Shown in pieces: positions 2,411 to 24,828 of a DNA stretch of 35,501 nt. Numbering within the stretch: position 1 is the stretch's first letter; each line of letters opens with the position of its first letter. The notes under the pieces are model-generated. The model was not told the origin of the DNA. It saw only the letters and a program-made list of their open reading frames with translations, and searched no databases. Source of the stretch: Candidatus Coprenecus stercorigallinarum (lineage in GTDB: Bacteria; Bacteroidota; Bacteroidia; Bacteroidales; UBA932); assembly GCA_018711305.1 (NCBI GenBank), contig DVIL01000028.1:1-35501 (forward strand). The letters run 5' to 3'. A program made the position numbers and the translations under genes.

Positions 2411-3670
2411 CTATGAGCCGAAATTGTCGAAGAGGATGTTCTCGGGAGGTACTCCGAGGCTGTCGAGCATCTTGAGTACCGACTGGGTCATCATCGGAGG
2501 ACCGCACATCAGGTAGAGGCAGTCCTCGGGAGCCTCGTGGTTCTTGAGGTAGGTCTCGTAGAGGACGTTGTGCACGAATCCGACCTTGTATGCAACTCCT
2601 GCTGCATCGGCCTCGGGATCCTGACGGTCGAGGGCCAGATGGAACTTGAAGTTGGGGAAGTCGCGCTCTATCTCGTGGAAGTCCTCGAGGTAGAAGGCCT
2701 CTTTCAGGCTGCGGGCACCGTAGAAGAAGTTGACTTTGCGGCCGGTCTTCTCGGTCTTGAACAGATGCATGATGTGGCTTCTCATGGGAGCCATTCCGGC
2801 ACCGCCGCCGATGAAGATGAACTCCTGGTCTGCGGGTGCGTTGTCCGGGATGAAGAACTCTCCGTAAGGGCCCGAGATGATCACCTTGTCACCCGGCTTG
2901 CGGGAGAAGATGTAGGACGAGCTGATTCCGGGAGGCACGTTCATGAAGCCGCCCTTGGCCTTGTCGAAAGGAGGGGTGGCGATACGGACGTTCAGCATGA
3001 TGATGTCACCCTCTGCAGGATGGTTGGCCATGGAGTATGCCTTGAAGGTAGGCTCGGAGTTGTGTGCGTGCAGGTTGAATACGCCCATTTTCTCCCAGTC
3101 GGCCCTGTAGGGCTCCTCTATGTCCATATCCTTGTAGTCGATATCGTACTTGGGGATGTCGATCTGGATATAGCCGCCGGAGCGGAAGTTGAGGTGCTCG
3201 CCTGCGGGAAGCTTCACAACGAATTCCTTGATGAAAGTGGCGACGTTCCTGTTGCTTACCACCTCGCACTCGAGTTTCTTGATGCCGAGGATGCTCTGGG
3301 GTACGAGGATCTTGAGGTCCTCGCGCACCTTGACCTGGCAGCCGAGCCTCCAGTTGTTCTGCTGCTGCTTGCGGGTGAAGAAACCTACCTCGGTGGGCAG
3401 GATGCTGCCGCCGCCTGAAAGCACCTGGCATTTGCACATGCCGCAGCTTCCGCCGCCGCCGCAGGCAGAGGGAAGGAATATCTTCTCGTTGGAGAGGGTG
3501 GTCAGCAGGGAGGAGCCGGGATTGACATCGAGGACTCTCTCGCCGTTGTTGATGTCGATCTTGACATTGCCCTGAGGGGTCAGTTTGGCCTTGGCCACCA
3601 GCAGGAGAGCGACCAGTATCAGGGTCACTACAAGGAACGTGATAATTGATACGATAAGTATTGTAGTCAT
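2411..3670 (-). CDS. nqrF: Na+-translocating NADH:quinone reductase subunit F
   Basis: NqrF is the electron-input subunit of the inner-membrane Na+ pump. It oxidises NADH through FAD and passes electrons to a [2Fe-2S] centre. The 419-aa product has one N-terminal membrane helix (about 4-26), then a ferredoxin domain with C70, C76, C79 and C111. These positions equal those I recall for the Vibrio cholerae protein. The FAD motif is K210-A-Y212-S213, with Lys where Arg is usual. The NADH site shows GGGAGMAP and the C-terminal CGPPMM motif. It is the last gene of nqrABCDEF, 12 bases after nqrE and just before a strong terminator. Identification is secure; the effect of K210 is unknown and likely mild. 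Confidence 0.97.
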   Translation of the reverse strand: MTTILIVSIITFLVVTLILVALLLVAKAKLTPQGNVKIDINNGERVLDVNPGSSLLTTLSNEKIFLPSACGGGGSCGMCKCQVLSGGGSILPTEVGFFTRKQQQNNWRLGCQVKVREDLKILVPQSILGIKKLECEVVSNRNVATFIKEFVVKLPAGEHLNFRSGGYIQIDIPKYDIDYKDMDIEEPYRADWEKMGVFNLHAHNSEPTFKAYSMANHPAEGDIIMLNVRIATPPFDKAKGGFMNVPPGISSSYIFSRKPGDKVIISGPYGEFFIPDNAPADQEFIFIGGGAGMAPMRSHIMHLFKTEKTGRKVNFFYGARSLKEAFYLEDFHEIERDFPNFKFHLALDRQDPEADAAGVAYKVGFVHNVLYETYLKNHEAPEDCLYLMCGPPMMTQSVLKMLDSLGVPPENILFDNFGS

Positions 3671-3682
3671 ACGTCAGTCCTC

Positions 3683-4297
3683 CTATAATTGAATACCCAT
3701 GAAGCTCATGAATGCTATACCCATGAGACCGGTGATGATGAATGAGATTCCGAGGCCCTTGAGAGGCTTGGGAACGTTGGAGTATGCGAGTTTCTCACGG
3801 ATGGCCGCGATGGTCACGATGGCGAGGAACCAGCCGATTCCGGATCCGAGGGCATATACTGTCGCGTAACCGAGGTTGGCGAAATCCCTTTCCTGCATGA
3901 ACAGTGAGGCACCCATTACGGCGCAGTTCACTGCAATCAGGGGAAGGAAGATACCCAGTGAAGAGAAAAGGGCGGGAGAGAATTTCTCCACGATCATCTC
4001 CACGAGCTGGGTGATGGCGGCGATTACCGCGATGAATACTATGAAGCTCAGGAAGCTCAGGTCGAGGTCAGCAAGTGCGGGGCTGATCCAGGACATTGCT
4101 CCGGGAGTGAGGAAGAACTTGTTGAGCAGGTAGTTGATAGGCAGGGTAACGAGGATTACGAATATCACTGCGATACCCAGACCGAAAGCTGTCTTGACAT
4201 TCTTCGATACAGCCAGGAATGAGCACATCCCCAAGAAGTATGCGAAAATCATGTTGTCGACGAATATCGACTTGACAAATAGACTTAAATATTCCAT
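3683..4297 (-). CDS. nqrE: Na+-translocating NADH:quinone reductase subunit E
   Basis: NqrE is a six-helix inner-membrane subunit, homologous to RnfA and paired with NqrD. Together they hold an iron centre between the subunits that relays electrons across the membrane. The 204-aa protein starts MEYLSLFVKSIFVDNMIFAY and has the usual length and hydrophobic profile, with the conserved half-helix stretches GMCSFLAVSKNV and MGASLFMQERDF. It sits 15 bases after nqrD and 12 before nqrF in the canonical order. Confidence 0.96.
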   Translation of the reverse strand: MEYLSLFVKSIFVDNMIFAYFLGMCSFLAVSKNVKTAFGLGIAVIFVILVTLPINYLLNKFFLTPGAMSWISPALADLDLSFLSFIVFIAVIAAITQLVEMIVEKFSPALFSSLGIFLPLIAVNCAVMGASLFMQERDFANLGYATVYALGSGIGWFLAIVTIAAIREKLAYSNVPKPLKGLGISFIITGLMGIAFMSFMGIQL

Positions 4298-4312
4298 AGT
4301 GATGTGCCTTTA

Positions 4313-4924
4313 TTATTTTTCTATAAGCTCTTTCTGAATGCCTCTCTGCAGCCAGATGAACAGACCTACCAGAATCAGGGCCATGGGAGGCAGGATGATC
4401 AGGCCGTTGTTCATGTATCCGGCTTCATACCAGCCGGCAGGAATGATCTGATGTCCGAACAGTGTACCGGAACCCAGAAGCTCGCGGATGAAGGCCAGAG
4501 CCACGAGAATCATACCGTAGCCGAGACCGTTGGCGATACCGTCCACGAAAGAGGGCCAGGGCTTGTTGCCGAGGGCGAAAGCCTCGATACGGCCCATGAT
4601 GATACAGTTGGTGATGATCAGACCGACGTATACGGACAGCTGCTTGCTGACCTCATAGGCGTATGCCTTGAGGAACTGGTCGATGAGGATTACGAACAGC
4701 GATACGAGTACCAGCTGGACGATGATTCGTATACGGTTGGGAATCGTATTGCGCAGCAGGGATGCGAACAGGCTTGAGAATCCGGTCACGAATGTAACCG
4801 ACAGAGCCATCACGCAGGCAGGCTCAAGCTTTACGGTAACTGCCAGCGAGGAGCAGATACCCAAGACTAAGACCGTTACCGGGTTGGCCTTGAAAAACGG
4901 GTTTTGATATATTTCCTTTTTCAT
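4313..4924 (-). CDS. nqrD: Na+-translocating NADH:quinone reductase subunit D
   Basis: NqrD is the second six-helix subunit, homologous to RnfE. It has 203 aa, starting MKKEIYQNPFFKANPVTVLV and carrying GICSSLAVTVKLEPA and the GLIITNCIIMGRIEAFAL stretch, which mirrors the half-helix Cys motif of NqrE. The Cys residues in these two stretches fit iron ligands at the NqrD/NqrE interface. It starts 2 bases after the nqrC stop, which indicates tight translational coupling. Confidence 0.96.
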   Translation of the reverse strand: MKKEIYQNPFFKANPVTVLVLGICSSLAVTVKLEPACVMALSVTFVTGFSSLFASLLRNTIPNRIRIIVQLVLVSLFVILIDQFLKAYAYEVSKQLSVYVGLIITNCIIMGRIEAFALGNKPWPSFVDGIANGLGYGMILVALAFIRELLGSGTLFGHQIIPAGWYEAGYMNNGLIILPPMALILVGLFIWLQRGIQKELIEK

Positions 4925-4926
4925 GA

Positions 4927-5682
4927 TTATCTTTCAGCTTTCTGTTTTTCAAGATAAGGTTCATAATATTCGAGCCACTGGCGTATTGCATTCTCCAGGG
5001 CACGGCTGGTGATGGTACCGCCGGAGATGGCGTCGATTTCATGGGCAGAGCCTTCAGGGGCGCCTCCCTTGACAACTGTCACCGATACCAGGCTGCCTCC
5101 GTCGAAGATGGACTTGCCGATGAACTGGTTGCTGAAATTAGGCGTGGCTATCTCAGCGCCCAGACCGGGAGTCTCTCCCTTGTGGAGGAAGGTTGCACCG
5201 TAAATGGTGTTGTAGTCGTCCTTGAGGGATACATAGCCCCAGATAGGGCCCCACAGACCGGCTCCGTAGATGGGGAATATCTCTACCTTGCTGCCGTCGT
5301 CCAGAGTGCAGACGAAGACGGGGAGGGTGAGCTTTGACACATCGGGATTGGCCTGTTTCATGATATCATACTGGGATTTCAGGCCTGCTGTAAGGGCGAG
5401 GGAGAATGCGTCTCCATCCACTTTATTGCCCTGTGCATCGACCAGATAGGAGTCTGTGATGTATTTGTTGAACTCCTGTTCCACGTATGCGTTCTTGTCA
5501 GAAGCCTCATCGGCTCCCTGGCCGAGGTTGACCGAGGACAGAATGCTCTGGCGGGTCTCGGTGTTCACGTTGGCCTGCTGCTTGCCGCTCAGGGATACGG
5601 ACACGTACGCGAGAACAGCAGCCACGATCACCACCATGACGGTGGAGTAGATAATTGTATATGTGTTACTGTTGGTATTCAT
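4927..5682 (-). CDS. nqrC: Na+-translocating NADH:quinone reductase subunit C
   Basis: NqrC carries a covalently bound FMN on the periplasmic side, anchored by one N-terminal membrane helix (about 9-31). In the 251-aa product the flavinylation motif is D217-AISGG-T223, so T223 is the expected phosphoester-linked residue. Gly replaces the more common Ala before it. FMN is attached by the ApbE flavin transferase, and no apbE is seen in this window. The gene lies 14 bases after nqrB and 2 before nqrD. Confidence 0.96.
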   Translation of the reverse strand: MNTNSNTYTIIYSTVMVVIVAAVLAYVSVSLSGKQQANVNTETRQSILSSVNLGQGADEASDKNAYVEQEFNKYITDSYLVDAQGNKVDGDAFSLALTAGLKSQYDIMKQANPDVSKLTLPVFVCTLDDGSKVEIFPIYGAGLWGPIWGYVSLKDDYNTIYGATFLHKGETPGLGAEIATPNFSNQFIGKSIFDGGSLVSVTVVKGGAPEGSAHEIDAISGGTITSRALENAIRQWLEYYEPYLEKQKAER

Positions 5683-5696
5683 AGTGTGATTCTCCC

Positions 5697-6803
5697 TTAT
5701 TGATTGATTTGCGCTCTCTTGAGACGTTTCTTGATGTTCCTCTGAACTACACAGTAGTCAATCAGCGGAGCGAATGTGTTCATAAGCAGGATGGCCAGCA
5801 TCATTCCTTCCGGATATCCGGGGTTGAATACCCTGAGGATAATGGTGAATGCACCGATCAGGAAGCCGTAGATCCATTTTCCTGTCTCGGTCTGGGCCGA
5901 GGTTACAGGGTCGGTGGCCATGAATACCGCTCCGAATGCGAAGCCGCCCATGATCAGGTGCTCCCATGCGGGAAGCGCGAGGTAGGACGAAGCGTCAGGA
6001 GCGAGGGCGTTGCAGAGGTAGCCGATTGCCAGAGCTCCCACAACGGTGGACAGCATGATTTTCCAGCTTGCAACTCCGAAGAACAGCAGGATGGCTGCAC
6101 CGATGAGGATTGCAACGGTAGAGGTCTCACCGGGACATCCGGGAATGAATCCGAGGAACATGTCCAGGGCTGAGGGCATATTGTTGAAATTGCCGAGAGC
6201 AGCGTCCGCAAGGGGTGTTGCTCCGGAATATCCGTCTACGCCGGCGACCCAAACCTTGTCACCTGACATGCTGGAGGGGTAGGCGAAGAAGAGGAATGCC
6301 CTGGCGAGGAGTGCCGGGTTCCAGATGTTCATGCCTGTGCCTCCGAATACCTCCTTGCCGATGATGACTGCGAAGGCCACTGCGAGGGCGAGAATCCAGA
6401 GGGGGGTGGTGATGGGCACGATCAGGGGAATGATCATACCTGTTACCAGATATCCCTCATTGACCTCATGTCCGCGGATCTGTGCGGAGGCGAACTCTAT
6501 GCCCAGACCTACGATGTAGGATACCAGGTAGAGGGGAAGTATCTTGAGGAAGCCGAACCAGACCTTCTGCCAGAAGCCCATATCGATTCCGGCTGCGATG
6601 CTGTGCTGGTCTCCGATATTGTAGATACCGAAGAGGAAGGTGGGGATCAGGGCGACCACCACGATGATCATGACTCTCTTGAGGTCGTTGCAGTCCCTTA
6701 CGTGCGAGCCGCTCTTGGTGACGGTATTGGGCACTCTGAGGAATGACTGGAAGGCCTCGATGGTGGAGTCGAATATTGAGCCTTTTTTCTCTTTCTTTTC
6801 CAT
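5697..6803 (-). CDS. nqrB: Na+-translocating NADH:quinone reductase subunit B
   Basis: NqrB is the large membrane subunit. It forms the Na+ path and holds riboflavin, a covalent FMN and the quinone-side redox chain. The 368-aa protein shows many hydrophobic helices and the flavinylation motif D190-GYSGA-T196 followed by PLADAAL. It is somewhat shorter than the proteobacterial protein of about 415 aa. The conserved GKEVFGGTGMNIWNPAL segment (149-165) is present. It begins 4 bases after the nqrA stop. Confidence 0.96.
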   Translation of the reverse strand: MEKKEKKGSIFDSTIEAFQSFLRVPNTVTKSGSHVRDCNDLKRVMIIVVVALIPTFLFGIYNIGDQHSIAAGIDMGFWQKVWFGFLKILPLYLVSYIVGLGIEFASAQIRGHEVNEGYLVTGMIIPLIVPITTPLWILALAVAFAVIIGKEVFGGTGMNIWNPALLARAFLFFAYPSSMSGDKVWVAGVDGYSGATPLADAALGNFNNMPSALDMFLGFIPGCPGETSTVAILIGAAILLFFGVASWKIMLSTVVGALAIGYLCNALAPDASSYLALPAWEHLIMGGFAFGAVFMATDPVTSAQTETGKWIYGFLIGAFTIILRVFNPGYPEGMMLAILLMNTFAPLIDYCVVQRNIKKRLKRAQINQ

Positions 6804-6807
6804 ATTC

Positions 6808-8181
6808 TTATGCCATTTCTTTAATCATGAGGTCAATTCCCTTGGAAACGATAGCCTGTATGTCTATCTTCGAGGGGTCAATGTATTCACAGAGGGCGAA
6901 GTCCTCTTCGACAACCTCGTAGATGCCGAGCTGCTCCATCTTGTCGATGTCCTCGGCGATGATGGCCTTGAGCAGGTACACGGGATAGATGTTCATGGGG
7001 AACACCTGGGCGTACTTGTTGGTCATCACGAATGCTCTCACTCCTCCGTTGAGGTTGGAGTCCATCTTGTATCTCTTCTTGGGAGTCAGCCATGAGAAGT
7101 ATGTGGATGCGAAGCTGTACTTCTTGGTTCTGAAAGGCTTGGCCCATCCGAATGTCTCATAGTAGACGCCTTCGGTAATCAGAGAGATGCAGTCGTCGTA
7201 GAAGCCCAGATAGCCGTCCTTGCCGACATTGGTGCCGGTGAGGATATCTCCGCTGATGTAGCGTACGGGGCAGCCCTGCTGGAGCTTCTCCACGTTGTCG
7301 TTGACCATGTCGGCTATGCCGCTGAAGCACATGCCGCTGATACATTTGATATAGCCCGGGGTGCTTACGCGGGGGCCTCCTACGGCCACTGTCTTGCGCA
7401 TATCCACCTTGCCGGTGTTGAAGAAACGGCCCATGATGGCCAGCATCTGGAGATTGACGGTCCAGATCAGGTCACCCTTGTTGATGGGGCAGACGTGATT
7501 GATCTGCACTCCGACATTGCCGGCGGGGTGAGGTCCGTCGAAGATGTGGAACTCGACACCCGAGAGCTTGTGAAGGGGAGAGCTGGCATGGGTTTTGGCA
7601 TAGAGACCGAAGTGGATCTTGGGGGCTATGCGTGACAGCACATTTACTGCAGTCTGGATATTGTCCACCTCGTCTTTTAAGATGTAGTCATAGTCCGCGG
7701 CCAGTGGAGCGGTATTGAAGCCTGAAATGTAGACAGCATTGGGACGGACCTCAGGATTGGGGACAATCCCGTAAGGACGCTGCTTGATGCAGGCCCACAG
7801 ACCGCTTTCAAGCAGGGCGCTGATGGCCTGCTCGGCAGTGATGGCCTCGGGCTTGGGAAGATTGAACTCGGCATATACCGTTTCCGGGTCAGCCTTGACT
7901 CTGACTTCGAGAAGCTTTCTCTTCTCTCCTCTGACAATTTCGCTGACAGTGCCGCTCACCGGTGAGGTGAACTTGATCTCAGGTCTCTTTTTATCGACAA
8001 AAAGGACGGATCCTGCCTTTACGGCATCACCTTCCTTTACTGCGAGTTTGGGGATAAGACCTTTGAAATCGGTTGGTTTGACGGCAATTGTCTCAGAAAC
8101 TATACTCTTGAGGATCTGGGCTGCAGGTACACCCTCGATAGGTATATCGAGCCCTTGTTTCAATTTTATATAGTCAACCAT
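6808..8181 (-). CDS. nqrA: Na+-translocating NADH:quinone reductase subunit A
   Basis: NqrA is the peripheral cytoplasmic subunit of the complex and has been linked to quinone binding. The 457-aa product starts MVDYIKLKQGLDIPIEGVPA. It has the biotinyl/lipoyl-like fold segment VKEGDAVKAGSVLFVDKKRP (about 49-68) and no membrane helix, and is close to the usual 446-450 aa. It is the first gene of the six-gene operon, whose genes are separated by only 2-15 bases. A -7 box (TATATTTG) lies about 27 bases upstream in the short region shared with the divergent helicase gene. Confidence 0.96.
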   Translation of the reverse strand: MVDYIKLKQGLDIPIEGVPAAQILKSIVSETIAVKPTDFKGLIPKLAVKEGDAVKAGSVLFVDKKRPEIKFTSPVSGTVSEIVRGEKRKLLEVRVKADPETVYAEFNLPKPEAITAEQAISALLESGLWACIKQRPYGIVPNPEVRPNAVYISGFNTAPLAADYDYILKDEVDNIQTAVNVLSRIAPKIHFGLYAKTHASSPLHKLSGVEFHIFDGPHPAGNVGVQINHVCPINKGDLIWTVNLQMLAIMGRFFNTGKVDMRKTVAVGGPRVSTPGYIKCISGMCFSGIADMVNDNVEKLQQGCPVRYISGDILTGTNVGKDGYLGFYDDCISLITEGVYYETFGWAKPFRTKKYSFASTYFSWLTPKKRYKMDSNLNGGVRAFVMTNKYAQVFPMNIYPVYLLKAIIAEDIDKMEQLGIYEVVEEDFALCEYIDPSKIDIQAIVSKGIDLMIKEMA

Positions 8182-12125: not shown

Positions 12126-13217
12126 TTATTCAAGGACGAATTCCTTGGCATTTTTCACCCCTGGATATCCGAAATAGTTCCCGATATCCCCGCAGACATA
12201 CAGTTTCTTTCCTATCAGTCCCGGATTGTCCACGAGATTCAGCGCATCCCGCAGTTTCTGGGAGGGCAGTTCGACCGCTGCGCATTCTTCTCTGGAGGAT
12301 GCCTCCGGACTTGAGGCGATGGCCAGATGGGTGGTTTTTGAAAACGGTCCCTCGAATTTCACATTCGCCGTGGTCATATCGCCTCCGACAATGTAGCCTG
12401 CCACCCATACATCTTCCGCACCCATGTTCAGTATCAGGTCCGCGACTGTCATGGCTTTATCGGCCGAAGATCCGTTGTTGCCGCTTCCGAGTACGAAATC
12501 CTCGTAGATCCAGTTCCTGGATGTGTCCACCTCCACAGAGAAGGTGTTTTCTCCATAGGAGTCTGCGACTGACAGCCTGACAGTCATCATGTCGGCTGCT
12601 TCCAGCTGTCTCGACAGCAGCGGAGTCTCTTCGCCGTTCTGCTCTGCTGTTACCCTCAGTATTCCGGGCATGAAATAAGCTGTCCTGGTCTCCTCCAGCG
12701 GGTAGGGCAGGGAATGCCCGTCAGAGCTGATGGTGATGCCGGCACCCTCGAATCTGCTTCGGAAGGAATCGCTGAACAGAAGGCGGATACCGCAGTTGAT
12801 CTGACGGCAGCCGAAGGCCACTGACAGAGTCTGACCGTCTTCGAGCACGACGGTTCTGTCATCTCCGAACAGGGGTTTGGAAAATGCCGGAGTATCGAAC
12901 ACCTCTGAACGCAGTGACAGGTCGTAGGCGCCTGAACTTACCTGCATCGGCTCCGGACGTCCGCCGTACGGCCCGTTGTAGACAGGTTCTCCGTCCGAGT
13001 CTGTGACGGACAGAATGAAACTTCCGGTGTCAGGCAACGTTATGCCTTCGGCCTTCGATAATGTCCCGGCACTGATGCGGCCTGTATAGAAGTCACTGTA
13101 ATCGGAAGAGAGCCTGAAAGAAATAAATGCGCTTCCCTTCATTCCGTCCCTGCAGGAATACAGCGCCATGGCTGCTCCAAAGAGGAGGACGGTCCCCTTT
13201 AACAATCTCTGTTTCAT
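12126..13217 (-). CDS. Surface lipoprotein with DUF4493-like and DUF6359-like domains
   Basis: A 363-aa protein with a lipoprotein signal (MKQRLLKGTVLLFGAAMALY then S-C22), so it is expected in the outer membrane or on the surface. Residues from about 25 to 230 form a beta-rich domain with GSFILSVTDSDGEPVYNGPY and YDLSLRSE, matching the DUF4493 type that occurs in Bacteroidota fimbria-like and surface proteins. The last 110 residues (MTVADLILNMGAEDVWVAGY, LAIASSP, ALNLVDNPGLIGKKLYVCGD, YFGYPGVKNAKEF) match the DUF6359 OB-fold-like domain. I infer structural or ligand-binding work and see no catalytic motif. A -7 box precedes the gene. Confidence 0.75.
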   Translation of the reverse strand: MKQRLLKGTVLLFGAAMALYSCRDGMKGSAFISFRLSSDYSDFYTGRISAGTLSKAEGITLPDTGSFILSVTDSDGEPVYNGPYGGRPEPMQVSSGAYDLSLRSEVFDTPAFSKPLFGDDRTVVLEDGQTLSVAFGCRQINCGIRLLFSDSFRSRFEGAGITISSDGHSLPYPLEETRTAYFMPGILRVTAEQNGEETPLLSRQLEAADMMTVRLSVADSYGENTFSVEVDTSRNWIYEDFVLGSGNNGSSADKAMTVADLILNMGAEDVWVAGYIVGGDMTTANVKFEGPFSKTTHLAIASSPEASSREECAAVELPSQKLRDALNLVDNPGLIGKKLYVCGDIGNYFGYPGVKNAKEFVLE

Positions 13218-13368: not shown

Positions 13369-16300
13369 ATGTATCGTATAACATCTCATCCCATTCTTCC
13401 GGTTCCTGCGGAAGATCCTGTATCATTCAATTTTGAAGGGAAAACCATAATAGGACAGAAAGGACAGACTATTGCAGCTGCTCTGCATCAGGCCGGTTAT
13501 CCGGTCCACAGTCTCAGCATCGACCATCGCAAGAGGACTATGGAATGCGGTATCGGCAAGTGCGGTGCATGCGAAATGCTTGTAGACGGCAAGATACGCC
13601 GTATCTGTGTAACCAAGGTGGACGGAGTCATGAATGTGGAGCGCCTCAGCGCCGACAGCGGCTTCAAGGGAATCCTTGTAACCGAAAAGGACGGCAAGGT
13701 GGAGGAAAAGGAAGTGTACAAGACCACTGTGGCCATCATAGGAGCAGGGCCGGCCGGACTTGCCGTGAGGGAGGAGCTGCTGAAGGAGGGCGTGGACTGC
13801 CTGGTGATAGACAGCAACAGTGAGATAGGAGGCCAGTTCCTGATGCAGACCCACCAGTTCTTTTTCTTCGAGAAGGAGAAGCGCTTCGGCGGTATGAGAG
13901 GATTCGACATCGCCAGGACTCTCGCCGGAGACTCCCACGAGGGCATCATGCTGGACTCCGTGGTCTGGGACATACTCGAGGGCAAGAGACTTGCGGTAAA
14001 GAATATAGTGAAGGACAAGGTGTTCTACGTGGATGCCGATGAGCTGGTCATTGCCACCGGAGCCGTGCCTTTCATGCCGGCCTTCAAGAACGATGATGTC
14101 CCCGGAGTCTATACGGCTGCAGTGGTGCAGAGGATGATGAATACCCAGTTCACGCTTCTGGGCAAGAATATACTGACAGTAGGTGCCGGCAATATAGGAT
14201 ACCTGACATCATATCAGGCCATGCAGGCCGGAGCCAATGTGAAGATGATCATCGAGGGAATGCCCCGTGAGGGCGGTTTCCCTGTGCAGGCCAACAGGGT
14301 GCGCCGTCTCGGAATCCCCATCCTGACATCCCACGTGCTGGTGGAGGCCGTACCGAATGCCGACTATACCGGCATTACCGGGGCCATTATCGCCGAGTGC
14401 GAGAATTTCAAGCCCATACCCGGGACGGAGAGACTGATCGACGGTATCGACTGCATCAATATATGCACCGGTCTGATGCCTGACAACCAGTTGTTCGTCA
14501 AGGGTAATGCCATATACGGCCGCAGCTGCCACGGGGTAGGTGACTCGGTACGTATAGGAGAGGGCACCTCGGCTGTCCTGCGCGGACGGCAGTGCGCCTA
14601 CGAGATCCTCCAGAATCTCGGACGCCGTTTCAATTATGACAATTACCTGCAGGTATCCAAGGAATACATTGATTCCCAGCAGCATCCCGTGAGAATCCTC
14701 CAGGAGCCCGCGATGCCTTCGGCCGAGAGAGCCGCAGCCGCTCCCTTTGTGATTATGGACTGCCTCTACGGATTTGCCTGCAATCCCTGCTCATTCTCCT
14801 GCAAGCAGGGAGCCATCACCAAGAGCTCTACTTCTACTACCCCGAAGATAGATTATGACAAGTGTATCGGCTGTATGCAGTGCGTGTACCAGTGCCCTGG
14901 CCTGGCCATTTTCGGTTACGATACCCGTGCCGGCAAGCTCTTTCTGCCCATTGAGTACGATGCAAAGGAAGGCTCTGAGGTATTTCTGGTGGATGACAAC
15001 GGCCGCAAGGTCGGCGAGGGCGTCATAGAGAAGATACTGGTCAAGCCCAACAAGACCAATGTCGCCCGTGTCAAAGTGGACAGGATATATGACGGCGGCG
15101 TACTGACCGATGCCCGCGGATTCATCGTAAAGGAAAGATATCCCGCTCCGGTCGAAATGAAACCGGCTCCGGCAGCTGACGGCAAGACCTATATATGCCA
15201 CTGTGAGGATATTACCATCGAGCGTATGCTGGAACTCATAGGAGACCGCAAGTCTATTTCTGCCGATGAACTGAAACATATCTCACGTATGGGAATGGGT
15301 CCCTGCAGGGGCAAGCGTTGTCTTTCGAGGGCCAAATCCGCCCTGCGCTCTTACGGAATAGAGGTGACAGGAGATTTCACTCCCCGTGCACCTATGGCAA
15401 ACCTTGTGGAGTTCGGAAATGTAATCAATTTGTCCGGGACCGAAAAAATAATCCTGCCGGCAGGCTCTGTTACAGACGGAGGCAAGGTAGGAGCACTGGT
15501 TGCGGGAGGCGGTATGGCCGGATCCGCAGTATTCCGCTATCTGGCGGAGGCCGGTTTTGCTCCGGTACTGGTCAACAGGGACCGCGGCAGTTCGTGGAGG
15601 AATATCGCCGGAGGGCGTCCGGCATTCTCTCTCCCGGCCTTAGCTGACATAGCAAACCATAACCTTGAGATATTCCGGGATCTGCAGAAGCATTCCAATA
15701 TAGACTTCCTTCAGATCCGCTATGTCAATTTTGCCCATGATGAAGCTACTTACAAGTCGCTCGATGCCGCCCGCGCATGGTCAAAGGCATATATGGTGGA
15801 TCCCAAGGACTTCCGCAAAGAGATATCGCCTTATATGAATCCCGGTCTGAATCTGTACGTTGCCGCCCAGGTGACGGAGGACTGCTGGCAGGCTACTCCC
15901 GGAAAGACTGTCAATGCAGTCCGTCTGATCGGACGCAGCCACGGCGGCCGCATACTCGAGGACACCGAGCTGGTGGATGTACGCAAAGTGGGCGGAGAGT
16001 ACGAAGTACTGGTGCGTGACAGTGCCCGTCACTACACTAAGTTCCGCACGGAGGTGTTTGTGAATGCTCTCGGATACGGTGCCGAGAAGTTCGCGCACAT
16101 GCTCGGTATAGAGACAGGTCTGTATCCTGTAAAGCATCAGGCTTTCATTACCAAGCGTCTTCCTTTGCTTGGCAAGGACGGGGCACCTCTGGACATGCTC
16201 ATCGACCGCCGTCACTACAAGGGCTTCTCCGCAGTCTACGGCCAGCAGCTCGCCGATACCGGCCAGATCATCGGATGTGCATCCCCTGCCACTGATCCGG

Positions 16301-16611
16301 CAGAGGCTGGCAAGGATTTGAAAGTCAATACACAGTCCTTCCTCGAAATATCATCCGAGGTGTTCTCCGAGTGGATACCTGCCCTCAAGAATGTCGGCAT
16401 ACAGGCAACATGGGCCGGATACTATGTGGAGTCCAGGTACATTGTAGACCCTGCACTCGGCCTTTTTGTCGGAATGCGCGGACACGGCTTCATGCTCTCG
16501 CAGTATATCGGCAAGCTTTATGTGGACGCACTCCTCGGCCGTCAGGTTCCTGAGTATTTCAGGGATCTGGCTCTCGGAGGCAGCGGTCTCAGCGAGCAGG
16601 CTTTCAAGTAA
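13369..16611 (+). CDS. Fused flavin/iron-sulfur dehydrogenase (HcnABC/LhpBEF/sarcosine oxidase-like, three subunits in one chain)
   Basis: A 1080-aa multidomain redox enzyme. Domains in order: (1) a Fer2_4-type [2Fe-2S] domain with C60, C65, C68, C80, like the gamma subunit of hydroxyproline dehydrogenase or HcnA; (2) an FAD/NAD disulfide-reductase-like domain from AIIGAGPAGLAVREEL (122-137), like the alpha subunit; (3) an insert with eight cysteines, C465/471/474/478 and C499/502/505/509, the latter a CIGCMQCVYQC ferredoxin motif, fitting two [4Fe-4S] clusters; (4) a Fer2_BFD-like [2Fe-2S] domain with C610-H-C612 and C646/C651; (5) a DAO-type FAD domain from about 707 (ALVAGGGMAGSAVF) to the end, like the beta subunit. 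The relatives oxidise amines or imino acids such as D-hydroxyproline, opines, glycine or sarcosine. The substrate here is unknown. It has its own promoter and terminator. Confidence 0.9.
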   Translation: MYRITSHPILPVPAEDPVSFNFEGKTIIGQKGQTIAAALHQAGYPVHSLSIDHRKRTMECGIGKCGACEMLVDGKIRRICVTKVDGVMNVERLSADSGFKGILVTEKDGKVEEKEVYKTTVAIIGAGPAGLAVREELLKEGVDCLVIDSNSEIGGQFLMQTHQFFFFEKEKRFGGMRGFDIARTLAGDSHEGIMLDSVVWDILEGKRLAVKNIVKDKVFYVDADELVIATGAVPFMPAFKNDDVPGVYTAAVVQRMMNTQFTLLGKNILTVGAGNIGYLTSYQAMQAGANVKMIIEGMPREGGFPVQANRVRRLGIPILTSHVLVEAVPNADYTGITGAIIAECENFKPIPGTERLIDGIDCINICTGLMPDNQLFVKGNAIYGRSCHGVGDSVRIGEGTSAVLRGRQCAYEILQNLGRRFNYDNYLQVSKEYIDSQQHPVRILQEPAMPSAERAAAAPFVIMDCLYGFACNPCSFSCKQGAITKSSTSTTPKIDYDKCIGCMQCVYQCPGLAIFGYDTRAGKLFLPIEYDAKEGSEVFLVDDNGRKVGEGVIEKILVKPNKTNVARVKVDRIYDGGVLTDARGFIVKERYPAPVEMKPAPAADGKTYICHCEDITIERMLELIGDRKSISADELKHISRMGMGPCRGKRCLSRAKSALRSYGIEVTGDFTPRAPMANLVEFGNVINLSGTEKIILPAGSVTDGGKVGALVAGGGMAGSAVFRYLAEAGFAPVLVNRDRGSSWRNIAGGRPAFSLPALADIANHNLEIFRDLQKHSNIDFLQIRYVNFAHDEATYKSLDAARAWSKAYMVDPKDFRKEISPYMNPGLNLYVAAQVTEDCWQATPGKTVNAVRLIGRSHGGRILEDTELVDVRKVGGEYEVLVRDSARHYTKFRTEVFVNALGYGAEKFAHMLGIETGLYPVKHQAFITKRLPLLGKDGAPLDMLIDRRHYKGFSAVYGQQLADTGQIIGCASPATDPAEAGKDLKVNTQSFLEISSEVFSEWIPALKNVGIQATWAGYYVESRYIVDPALGLFVGMRGHGFMLSQYIGKLYVDALLGRQVPEYFRDLALGGSGLSEQAFK

Positions 16612-16671: not shown

Positions 16672-17550
16672 ATGGGAAAATACGGAACAATGGAAATTCC
16701 AGGAAAAATTGTAGAAATGGAGGATGCCCGCCGGATTCTCAGACCGAGGCGGGAGGATGCCCACAAGGGGGATTTCGGGCATGCGCTGCTTGTATGCGGT
16801 TCGTATGGTATGGCAGGAGCCGCAGTTCTGGCAACTATGGGAGCCCTGCGTTCCGGCTGCGGCCTGGTGACGGTTCATCTTCCGGAGTCCGAGCGGATGG
16901 CAATCCACGTAACCTCCCCCTCGGCGATGGTGGACAGCGATCCCGGGGCGTACTTTTCGGCATTGCCCTCGAATCTGGACAAATACACGGCAGTGGGATG
17001 CGGTTGTGGACTCGGGCGGCATCCTGAGACAGAGGCGGCTTTGCAGGCACTGCTCGAAGCGTGGCATAGGCCGATGGTTCTGGATGCGGATGCCCTGAAT
17101 ATCATTGCCGTCAGACCGGAACTCTTCGAGTCCGTACCGGATGGATCCATACTCACTCCTCATCTCGGGGAGCTCCGCCGCCTGACTGGAGAATGGACGT
17201 CTTCAGCGGATATGATGGAGAAGGCTTTCCGCCTGGCCTGCAGGACCCGCAGCTGCGTGGTGGTCAAGGGACCTCATTCGGCCGTTATCGGTCCGGACGG
17301 GAGGGTGTCCTGCAATTCCACCGGCAATCCGGGTATGGCGACCGGTGGCAGCGGGGATGTCCTTACGGGCCTTCTTACGGGCCTTCTCGCCTCCGGCTAT
17401 CCGGCATTCGATGCGGCCCGTCTGGGAGTGTGGCTGCACGGCAGGGCAGGGGATATCGCGGCCTTGCACTACGGACAGAACGGTATGAACAGCCGGGACA
17501 TAGCCGGTTGTCTCGGAGAGGCGTTCCTGTCTCTGGAAAAATCCTTGTAG
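16672..17550 (+). CDS. nnrD: ADP/ATP-dependent NAD(P)HX dehydratase
   Basis: A ribokinase-like enzyme that repairs hydrated NADH or NADPH (NADHX/NADPHX) in the cytoplasm. The 292-aa product has HKGDFGHALLVCGSYGMAGA (about 31-50), the substrate loop VLDADALN, TPHLGELRRL, VVVKGPHSAV and the catalytic signature GNPGMATGGSGDVLTG (218-233). Many bacteria fuse this to the NnrE epimerase. Here the epimerase domain is absent, so NnrE must be separate. Starts at 16672 and 16690 are both possible; the later one removes six residues that are not conserved. The 3' end touches the broken menA gene on the other strand. Confidence 0.92.
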   Translation: MGKYGTMEIPGKIVEMEDARRILRPRREDAHKGDFGHALLVCGSYGMAGAAVLATMGALRSGCGLVTVHLPESERMAIHVTSPSAMVDSDPGAYFSALPSNLDKYTAVGCGCGLGRHPETEAALQALLEAWHRPMVLDADALNIIAVRPELFESVPDGSILTPHLGELRRLTGEWTSSADMMEKAFRLACRTRSCVVVKGPHSAVIGPDGRVSCNSTGNPGMATGGSGDVLTGLLTGLLASGYPAFDAARLGVWLHGRAGDIAALHYGQNGMNSRDIAGCLGEAFLSLEKSL

Positions 17551-22897: not shown

Positions 22898-24136
22898 ATG
22901 CTTGTAAATTTTACATTCCAAAACTTCCGTTCATTCAGAGAAGAACGGTCACTTAGGATGGAGGCAACCTCGATAAAGGAACTTAAAGACTCGATTGTTG
23001 AGGCAGGTGGATGCCGGTTGTTACCAGCGGCAGTGATGTATGGAGCAAATTCGAGCGGTAAGAGCAATGTGCTGCTGGCCATCCTGGCAATGAAAGATAT
23101 GGTCTTGTCCTCAGTCCGCTTGAATCCTGACGATCAACTGGCGTTCGACCCGTTCCGTCTGGATGAGACATCGGCCTCGCAACCTACATCTTACGAAATA
23201 CAATTTCTTATCGGAGATGCAAAATACCGCTATGGCATTGAACATGATCAGAAAAGAGTCATCGCAGAATGGCTGTATGAGAAAAATCTGAAAGAACGTG
23301 AGTTCTGCCTGTTTGAGAGAAATGGCCAGGATTTTCATATCTCGTCTGCAAGGTTTGCAGAAGGAGTCGGGAAGGAGGAATCAACACCGGAGAACAGGCT
23401 TTTTCTGTCATTGGTGGCACAGTTGAATGGTAAAAAGGCAGAATCGATTATCGGCTTTTTCCGTGGAATGTATGATTTCTCACGCAGGAGTTCAAAGGAG
23501 AATGACAATTTTACTATGAGGATGTTTCAGGAAGACTGGGAGGAATGTAGTGATATTCTGGAATTTTACCGCTACCTGCAATTAGGTTTTAAGGATTTGA
23601 AAGTCCAGGAAGCGCGCTACTATTATATGGATAAAGGAAAGAGAGTGGAGTTTAAGGGATTGCATGAATATGAGATGCGTACGATCCATGACATTTATGA
23701 CAATGACGGAAATGTCGTAAGTGAGCGGATGTTCAGTAAGGCATTGATGGAATCGGAAGGAACCCAGCAGGTGATTTCCCTCTCCGGCCCACTGTTTTTC
23801 GCTTTGAAAAACGGAACACTGTTGCTGGTAGACGAGCTTGATGTAAGATTACATCCGATGTTGACCAGAAGTATCGTTAAGCTGTTCATGAGCAGGAATA
23901 CGAATCCTAATGGAGCGCAGCTGATCTGTACTACACATGATACCAATCTGCTCGACCTTGCGTATCTGCGCAGGGACCAGATATGGTTTACTGAAAAGGA
24001 CAGGACGGAGTCGAGTGACCTCTATTCACTTGTGGAGTTTAGGGATGGCAGGGGTGTCAAAGTCCGTAATGACCGCAGCATTGAGAAGGATTATATCGAG
24101 GGAAGATATGGTGCGATACCGTTTTTACATTATTGA
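22898..24136 (+). CDS. AAA ATPase of an AbiL/RloAB-type abortive-infection pair (AbiLi-like)
   Basis: A 412-aa ABC/SMC-like ATPase of the AAA_15/AAA_21 group. It starts with the family's typical NFTFQNFRSF strand and has Walker A GANSSGKS (49-56). A helical insert follows, with an LSG signature-like segment before Walker B (LLLVDELDVRLHP, D312/E313) and an H-loop region, ICTTHDTNLLD. The next gene encodes an RloB protein; an ATPase of this kind followed by RloB is the arrangement in AbiL and RloAB. In such systems the ATPase is thought to sense or hold the effector. Base composition is AT-richer than the flanking genes, which suggests acquisition. Other ATPase/TOPRIM pairs (OLD, PARIS) are alternatives, but the partner fits RloB better. 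Confidence 0.85.
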   Translation: MLVNFTFQNFRSFREERSLRMEATSIKELKDSIVEAGGCRLLPAAVMYGANSSGKSNVLLAILAMKDMVLSSVRLNPDDQLAFDPFRLDETSASQPTSYEIQFLIGDAKYRYGIEHDQKRVIAEWLYEKNLKEREFCLFERNGQDFHISSARFAEGVGKEESTPENRLFLSLVAQLNGKKAESIIGFFRGMYDFSRRSSKENDNFTMRMFQEDWEECSDILEFYRYLQLGFKDLKVQEARYYYMDKGKRVEFKGLHEYEMRTIHDIYDNDGNVVSERMFSKALMESEGTQQVISLSGPLFFALKNGTLLLVDELDVRLHPMLTRSIVKLFMSRNTNPNGAQLICTTHDTNLLDLAYLRRDQIWFTEKDRTESSDLYSLVEFRDGRGVKVRNDRSIEKDYIEGRYGAIPFLHY

Positions 24137-24138
24137 AT

Positions 24139-24828
24139 ATGGGAAAGAGAGAGCAGTTCAAGCTACAAAGGCGTGAGGCGAAAACTTTAGGAAAGCGCAG
24201 GAAGAATGTGCGGTCGAAGATTGTCCGTTTTCTCATTGTGTGTGAGGGAACAGAGACAGAACCGAATTATTTTAAGGCATTTATAGACAATCACTATTCT
24301 GCGGTTTTGGAAAAACCTGCCATTAAAGGAGCGGGACGTTCCACGTGTTCGCTTGTGAAGTGGGCAAGGGAGAAAAAGGAGGAGATTGAGCGGGCAAGTC
24401 AGCTTGAATTTGACAGGGTCTGGGTGGTGTTTGATAAAGATGATAATGATGATTTTGATAAGGCAATAGGACTTGCCGAGCAATACGGATTCCAATCTGC
24501 ATGGAGCAATGAGGCATTTGAACTGTGGTTTTTGCTGCATTTTCAGTATCTGGACACAGCTGTAAGCCGTACTGCGTATATTGACAAACTTGAGAGTAAA
24601 GTGCGCAGTTACAGAGGTTATGAATCGTTCAGGTATCAAAAGAGTTCGAGAGAGATTTATGGTATAATTACCTCTTTGGGTAATGAGCAGTCCGCTATAT
24701 CCCATGCCATACACTTGAGGGCGGGGTATAGGAAAGGGCAAAAACCATCAGAGTGCAATCCGTGTACAACTGTTGACTGTCTGATAGAAGAATTGAGGCA
24801 CCCGGAGGTGTTATTGAAGGGATTATAA
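24139..24828 (+). CDS. RloB-like protein (AbiLii-like effector candidate)
   Basis: A 229-aa protein with the RloB family pattern: a basic N-terminus (KREQFKLQRREAKTLGKRRK), the strand and acidic motif FLIVCEGTETEPNYF, VWVVFDKDDNDDF, and SNEAFELWFLLHF. The E/DxD-like residues in the first two motifs are reminiscent of TOPRIM nucleases, so nucleic-acid cleavage or blockage is a reasonable but unproven role. ATG 24139 lies 2 bases after the ATPase stop. A TTG at 24133 would instead overlap it by four bases. The gene ends 9 bases before the convergent hydrolase gene, and no terminator is seen between them. Confidence 0.85.
   Translation: MGKREQFKLQRREAKTLGKRRKNVRSKIVRFLIVCEGTETEPNYFKAFIDNHYSAVLEKPAIKGAGRSTCSLVKWAREKKEEIERASQLEFDRVWVVFDKDDNDDFDKAIGLAEQYGFQSAWSNEAFELWFLLHFQYLDTAVSRTAYIDKLESKVRSYRGYESFRYQKSSREIYGIITSLGNEQSAISHAIHLRAGYRKGQKPSECNPCTTVDCLIEELRHPEVLLKGL

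Follow-up and report, generated by a model that had tools for sequence, protein, structure and literature searches.

What does a dehydrogenase oxidize when parts usually kept on separate subunits, together with additional iron-sulfur motifs, are joined in one polypeptide? The question is raised by a plus-strand gene in a 35,501-nucleotide stretch of contig DVIL01000028.1 (hereafter the window) from Candidatus Coprenecus stercorigallinarum, a member of the Bacteroidales. An earlier interpretation made from the DNA alone, here called the sequence-only reading, had described its product as one 1080-residue fusion of gamma-, alpha- and beta-type subunits that feeds electrons from an amine or imino acid into carriers via flavins and clusters. 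The single fused enzyme is borne out by an open reading frame (ORF) spanning positions 13369-16611 as a single gene and by the order of its Pfam domains. It is nearly certain that the product is a genuine one-chain relative of the amino-acid dehydrogenase complexes, that it is conserved and that it bears four cluster motifs. Gene neighborhood and presence patterns point to the metabolism of proline and delta1-pyrroline-5-carboxylate (P5C), and we propose, with confidence that is evenly poised, that the protein is a single-chain proline-dehydrogenase-type oxidoreductase of anaerobic Bacteroidales acting on L-proline or P5C.

Architecture and conservation of the fused enzyme

The domain search that the sequence-only reading had suggested returned Fer2_4, Pyr_redox_2, Fer4 and DAO above the Pfam cut-offs, with Fer2_BFD below its own (21.5 vs 26 bits). 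The Fer2_BFD model clears the cut-off in the Parabacteroides distasonis homolog (35.4 bits), and the region aligns weakly with the C-terminal domain of PH1363, the alpha subunit of Pyrococcus horikoshii L-proline dehydrogenase. All 16 cysteines that had been listed as cluster ligands lie where they were said to lie, and the four motifs are real: C60/C65/C68/C80 in the Fer2_4 domain (C-x4-C-x2-C-x11-C), C465/471/474/478 and C499/502/505/509 in an insert whose residues 492-514 match Fer4 above cut-off, and the four BFD-type ligands given in Table 1. Besides its flavin adenine dinucleotide (FAD) motif, the FAD/NAD domain carries a second Rossmann motif, GAGNIG, at residues 272-277, predicted together with E296 to form a site for nicotinamide adenine dinucleotide, NAD(H). 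The DAO domain is the predicted substrate site.

Table 1. Parts of the fused enzyme, with positions in the window
Feature	Positions	Strand	Details
Whole single-chain enzyme	13369..16611	+	1080 residues; one copy in its own genome; start methionine invariant in 53/53 sequences
Fer2_4 [2Fe-2S] domain	13414..13644	+	Residues 16-92; Pfam PF13510, 50.3 bits; gamma subunit equivalent
FAD/NAD domain	13726..14496	+	Residues 120-376; Pfam PF07992 (Pyr_redox_2), 76.4 bits; FAD motif GAGPAG at 125-130
Insert	14710..15186	+	Residues 448-606; ferredoxin-like part with two [4Fe-4S] motifs, then a small beta-barrel
BFD-type [2Fe-2S] domain	15190..15345	+	Residues 608-659; ligands C610/C612/C646/C651; Pfam PF04324
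DAO-type FAD domain	15496..16527	+	Residues 710-1053; Pfam PF01266, 123.2 bits; beta-subunit equivalent

Conservation was assessed in an alignment of 53 near full-length sequences with pairwise identities below 85%, in all of which the enzyme is one chain. All 16 ligand cysteines, including the Fer2_4 set, are invariant in this alignment (53/53), as they are in a larger set of 98 sequences (98/98) that includes the window's own and contains species repeats. Also invariant among the 53 are G272, G274, G277 and E296 of the predicted NAD(H) site, three further cysteines (C366, C839 and C970), and W743-R744, C839-W-Q, D946-R947 and Y957-G-Q-Q. Because the start methionine is invariant too, the N-terminus appears well placed. 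At the one locus compared in this way (L053), the fused enzyme is conserved to a similar degree (70%) as the nqr and uvrD genes there (47-75%).

Structure prediction, also suggested with the sequence-only reading, yielded a good AlphaFold model of the whole chain (mean predicted local distance difference test score, pLDDT, 81.6; predicted template modeling score, pTM, 0.79), weak at residues 57-67 in the [2Fe-2S] loop, which include two of that cluster's ligands. Modeled separately, the insert reached a pLDDT of 91.8. Its profile matches an RnfB-type subunit (E 3.3e-10) and other ferredoxin-like chains; Foldseek gave no match of the insert to solved structures at E 0.001 or better, and its beta-barrel produced generic matches alone (E 0.02 or worse).

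Distribution among Bacteroidales

The search for proteins with the same domain order found the single-chain form in 150 of 393 Bacteroidales genomes (match at 1e-40 or better). Most of the matches listed run uninterrupted over the full length in a single reading frame, and a few are split at contig ends; the fusion is therefore neither chance nor mis-assembly. The window's own genome has one copy, which is also its sole DAO-family match at E 1e-10. In 59 genomes of a relatives search (own genome included), 47 had some match at E 1e-3 and 28 had one below 1e-200, counting the own genome and copies split over contigs; the matches beyond the strong ones were short and weak. A draw of 395 genomes across the phylum, in which 15 of the 21 rows listed were other orders of the same class, gave one match, the own genome. 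Scanning of genome contigs returned at least 587 matching stretches, at least 580 of them relatives, and among the best 80 of these 580 all but one ("uncultured bacterium") carry titles that point to Bacteroidales, Bacteroidia, Bacteroidetes or groups taken to lie within them. Many carriers come from gut and rumen, judging by record titles.

The searches covered Bacteroidota genomes, plasmid records and viral contigs. No viral contig matched the fused enzyme, and a viral fold library gave partial matches alone, at low identity and to flavoprotein-type folds. Of 167 plasmid records with a match, just one, from P. distasonis, covers at least 80% of the query. This record (L128; NZ_OY725834.1, 218767 bp), named plasmid 89, bears ppdK and rlmD along with the fused enzyme and looks more like part of a chromosome than like a plasmid. 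The one annotated homolog examined, in P. distasonis, is called just "FAD-dependent oxidoreductase".

Comparison with known enzymes

The nearest solved relative is the archaeal L-proline dehydrogenase, which refines the class of amine or imino-acid dehydrogenase given in the sequence-only reading. The best Foldseek matches are both subunits of the P. horikoshii enzyme, 1y56_B (PH1364, beta; E 6.9e-25) and 1y56_A (PH1363, alpha; E 1.0e-21), and the same two subunits head the matches of the 53-sequence profile (9.5e-18 and 1.1e-14), followed by sarcosine oxidase alpha. These profile and fold matches to both subunits support that class. The P. horikoshii enzyme (PH1363/PH1364, alpha4beta4, PDB 1y56) shares with the fused protein the BFD-type C-x-C ... 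C-x4-C region and the DAO domain. It differs in having two chains instead of one; in the alignment, no cysteines of PH1363 fall at the C60-C80 positions, and its stretch between the aligned FAD and BFD parts has about 180 residues fewer, which fits absence of the ferredoxin insert.

Another relative is the four-subunit L-proline dehydrogenase of Thermococcus profundus. Excerpts of PMC4364671 list homologs of this enzyme as alpha, gamma, delta and beta subunits (pdhA, pdhF, pdhX and pdhB), encoded in a single cluster with locus numbers at even intervals. These are separate archaeal genes, in contrast to the single chain of the fused enzyme. Compared by printed gene order alone, pdhA-pdhF-pdhX-pdhB agrees with the sequence of domains in the fused enzyme provided that the ferredoxin-like parts are encoded by pdhF and pdhX (gamma and delta), as we presume they are.

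The Fer2_4, FAD plus BFD, and DAO parts also recur in HcnABC, in LhpBEF (D-hydroxyproline dehydrogenase) and in OdhABC (opine dehydrogenase), but there, as in the archaeal L-proline dehydrogenase (L-ProDH) family, they are separate subunits, and in the former three the gene order differs as well. An example of this kind in Rhizobium sp. N1314 consists of three genes for DAO (375 residues), Fer2_4 (100 residues) and FAD/BFD (493 residues) proteins, none of which has a Fer4 match in Pfam. In excerpts of PMC4575208, the N-terminal part of the L-ProDH alpha subunit is said to correspond to the gamma subunit of other family members, and the gamma-type motif is printed as C-x4-C-x2-C-x11~12-C, a pattern to which C60-C80 conforms in 53/53 sequences. 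The alpha-type combination of a FAD domain with a BFD-like C-x-C...C-x4-C region is likewise present (Pyr_redox_2 and the BFD region), with a C612-C646 spacer of 33 residues against the 15-20 printed in those excerpts; PH1363 aligns there with a similarly long spacer. The DAO-type beta domain has PH1364 as its best solved match. Heterotetrameric sarcosine oxidase (SoxABDG) aligns through its alpha subunit over residues 12-362 of the fused enzyme, its beta subunit being a separate chain; neither an aminomethyltransferase nor an SO_alpha_A3 domain is among the matches listed for the fused enzyme (25 of 28 Pfam families). With its parts on one chain, the fused enzyme counts as a variant of the heteromeric flavin amino-acid dehydrogenases, a known kind, and not as a typical member. 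No paper on this architecture was found by title or abstract start in the open-license PMC literature.

Association with P5C dehydrogenase

An order-wide set of 80 genomes, consisting of the window's own and 79 of 93 family representatives, was screened for P5C dehydrogenase (P5CDH; model TIGR01236). The enzyme is present in 32 of 39 carriers of the fused gene and in 16 of 41 non-carriers (Fisher test; p-value: 1e-4), with a p-value of 4e-5 after dropping six less complete genomes; these values are only a guide, because genomes share ancestry. The link persists among genomes without classical proline dehydrogenase (8/13 carriers vs 4/20 non-carriers; p-value: 0.027). Classical proline dehydrogenase itself occurs in 26/39 carriers and 21/41 non-carriers.

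A second set comprised 49 carriers related to the window, at least three of them repeats of another by coordinates, and 15 non-carrier relatives. P5CDH was detected in 48/49 of these carriers, the 49th (G820) having the last part of such a gene where its contig stops, vs 7/15 of the non-carrier relatives. Classical proline dehydrogenase is missing from 45 of the 49 related carriers (present in 4), from 11/11 carriers of the window's genus plus 5/5 further carriers of that genus, and from 12/12 members of the clade with adjacent P5CDH described below, one of which (L040) ends too soon to show P5CDH. Within the window's family, the classical enzyme is found in 1/16 P5CDH-positive carriers vs 4/4 P5CDH-positive non-carriers of other genera (p-value: 0.001), the exception being G727, whose P5CDH was taken from its apparent repeat G840. 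With same-genus cases added the contrast is 1/16 vs 4/7 (p-value: 0.017), and counted by genus it is 1/5 vs 4/4 (p-value: 0.048). Classical proline dehydrogenase is also present in two more non-carriers, G025 and G030, in which P5CDH of this family was not found. In the window's family, P5CDH thus goes with either the fused enzyme or the classical one, the pattern that a second kind of proline dehydrogenase would give. Simple replacement of the classical enzyme was rejected as an order-wide explanation and kept only for this family and for the clade with adjacent P5CDH.

Physical linkage was examined in 121 loci, some of them species repeats, with flanks of up to 8 kb a side, some shorter. A P5CDH gene lies near the fused gene in 11/121 loci, all in one clade, at distances of 68 to 3494 bases and on differing sides and strands. 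Four genomes from three families have a short proline dehydrogenase gene no more than 290 bases from the fused gene, namely two of the 121 loci and G527 and G530 (80 and about 258 bases from the fused gene), the last two having been picked because this adjacency was noticed from coordinates. At one locus (L038:7246-10618; 1/121), the fused gene is succeeded on its own strand by genes for aspartate carbamoyltransferase, ornithine carbamoyltransferase and carbamate kinase, and beyond these lies a convergent P5CDH.

Proposed function and alternatives

As a proline dehydrogenase, the protein would unite in one chain what is divided among subunits in archaeal L-proline dehydrogenase and in the HcnABC/LhpBEF/opine dehydrogenase family. 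Its C-terminal DAO domain would oxidize an imino acid, most likely L-proline, to P5C on FAD. Judging by motif content, the electrons may then visit the BFD cluster, the two [4Fe-4S] clusters, the [2Fe-2S] cluster and the second FAD, in an order that is a guess, perhaps with a second, interface flavin on the path as in relatives, and would exit to a carrier such as NAD or ferredoxin. Each chain would then hold two or three flavins and about 12 iron atoms. P5CDH, which most carrier genomes also encode, in some cases close to the fused gene, would turn the product into glutamate.

Several observations weigh against this proposal. The P5CDH-adjacent loci are not independent, because all form one clade, and in 110/121 loci no P5CDH was present in the flanks examined. 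Order-wide there is no replacement pattern, since classical proline dehydrogenase occurs in 24/32 carriers and 12/16 non-carriers among P5CDH-positive genomes; in the 14 family representatives left out of the 80-genome set it occurs in 4/7 carriers and 2/7 non-carriers. Where the fused enzyme stands beside a short proline dehydrogenase, it is presumably not redundant with it. Three non-carriers of the window's genus keep P5CDH with neither proline dehydrogenase found, and P5CDH is therefore used for something else there. Ornithine aminotransferase, found in 39/42 carriers examined (of the 49) and in 9/15 non-carriers, is a rival source of P5C. Ornithine carbamoyltransferase scores above cut-off in 34/39 carriers vs 22/41 non-carriers, nearly as strong a correlation, and part of the P5CDH signal may therefore reflect general amino-acid catabolism; the P5CDH link is strong in genomes lacking this enzyme (5/5 carriers vs 2/19 non-carriers) and weak in those having it (27/34 vs 14/22; p-value: 0.23). 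As for the protein itself, the putative counterpart of the Arg-x-Trp motif reported to bind flavin mononucleotide in relatives has an invariant W804, with R802 in just 30/53 sequences. Excerpts of PMC4575208 also describe an opine dehydrogenase beta subunit that is close to archaeal L-ProDH and does not use L-proline.

Part of this picture would be explained by the same fold and wiring serving another imino acid, such as trans-4-hydroxy-L-proline, cis-4-hydroxy-D-proline or D-proline, with P5CDH handling the (hydroxy)pyrroline product: both the P5CDH link and the coexistence with a short classical proline dehydrogenase in four genomes would follow, and D-hydroxyproline dehydrogenase belongs to the heteromeric flavin dehydrogenase subunit family in the excerpts of PMC4575208. 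The closest solved relative is, however, an L-proline enzyme, and we regard a different imino acid as unlikely. That the substrate is proline, hydroxyproline or P5C, taken together, is nonetheless probable. If the enzyme were instead an amine or opine dehydrogenase of another type, acting on glycine, sarcosine, an N-methyl amino acid or an opine, the P5CDH association would be secondary to an amino-acid-fermenting way of life that these genomes have in common, in keeping with the ornithine carbamoyltransferase counts. Fold matches also include the DAO domains of D-arginine dehydrogenase, glycine oxidase, sarcosine oxidase and dimethylglycine dehydrogenase, the first three trailing the proline enzyme by a few powers of ten; the NCBIfam matches of the DAO part are weak ones only (GlpA, 31.7 bits; ThiO, 29.1 bits), and the invariant stretches from W743-R744 to Y957-G-Q-Q give no reading from relatives. 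Against such an enzyme, which we consider unlikely, stands the gene's proximity to P5CDH and to a proline dehydrogenase, seen in two separate clades.

A hydroxy-acid substrate, perhaps related to D-2-hydroxyglutarate, was suggested by YdiJ-like genes encoding a possible Fe-S flavoprotein partner within about 2.1 kb of the fused gene in 7/121 loci. At locus L059, a homolog of YdiJ-like Fe-S D-2-hydroxyglutarate dehydrogenase ends 37 bases upstream on the same strand, and at L016 a similar partial ORF ends 17 bases before the fused gene, again on the same strand. Six of the seven genes, however, are on the opposite strand about 2 kb off, form one related group and share 24-25% identity with the L059 protein, and no L-2-hydroxyglutarate oxidase model is among the 12 NCBIfam matches of the DAO domain; this explanation is very improbable. 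A further version of the proline-dehydrogenase-type enzyme builds on the extra module with two [4Fe-4S] motifs and on the predicted NAD(H) motif, which is intact. In this version proline and reduced ferredoxin would jointly reduce two NAD+, or the reverse, in a single-chain electron-confurcating (or bifurcating) reaction. The proline potential is about -0.12 V, and lactate dehydrogenase/Etf (electron-transferring flavoprotein) does likewise with lactate. We hold this version to be doubtful, with a small chance of being correct.

Gene neighborhood and other features of the window

Operon context was considered as a route to function and set aside, as neighbors vary by clade and look like inherited synteny: depending on the clade, they are an opposite-strand DUF4493/DUF6359 gene, a uvrD-nqr block, a yceD-rpmF-plsX-fabH block or a YdiJ-like gene (the names uvrD, ugd, nqr, yceD, rpmF, plsX, fabH and nnrD were given by eye). 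In the window, six nqrA-F-like genes adjoin a uvrD-like gene at 2411-8181 on the minus strand. Such a block recurs close to the fused gene at several loci elsewhere in Bacteroidales; in L067 and L017 the two are immediate neighbors. A functional link to NQR was rejected and the arrangement taken as synteny: in the window the nqr genes start about 5 kb away from the enzyme and are separated from it by other genes, and in other loci they occur on either strand.

Divergent from the fused gene, at 12126-13217 on the minus strand, is a DUF4493 and DUF6359 gene with a lipoprotein-like start, a homolog of which occurs in 41/100 loci (repeats and short flanks included). On the other side, at 16672-17550 on the plus strand, a 292-residue ORF resembles NAD(P)H-hydrate dehydratase by eye; in L013, from the same genus, the neighboring ORF has 494 residues and is extended at its N-terminus. 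Further along, at 22898-24828 on the plus strand, an AAA_21 ATPase gene is followed by an RloB gene, a make-up that we take to be that of RloAB-like candidate phage-defense pairs.

Implications

The condensation of a whole subunit complex into one well-conserved chain offers a simple object for studying the electron path from an amino acid via flavins and four cluster motifs. If the confurcating version were true, it would represent a new type of confurcating enzyme in one polypeptide, and would explain why some anaerobes keep the fused enzyme beside an ordinary proline dehydrogenase. If the fused enzyme is the missing proline dehydrogenase of these genomes, a directly testable prediction, it would close a gap in their amino-acid metabolism.

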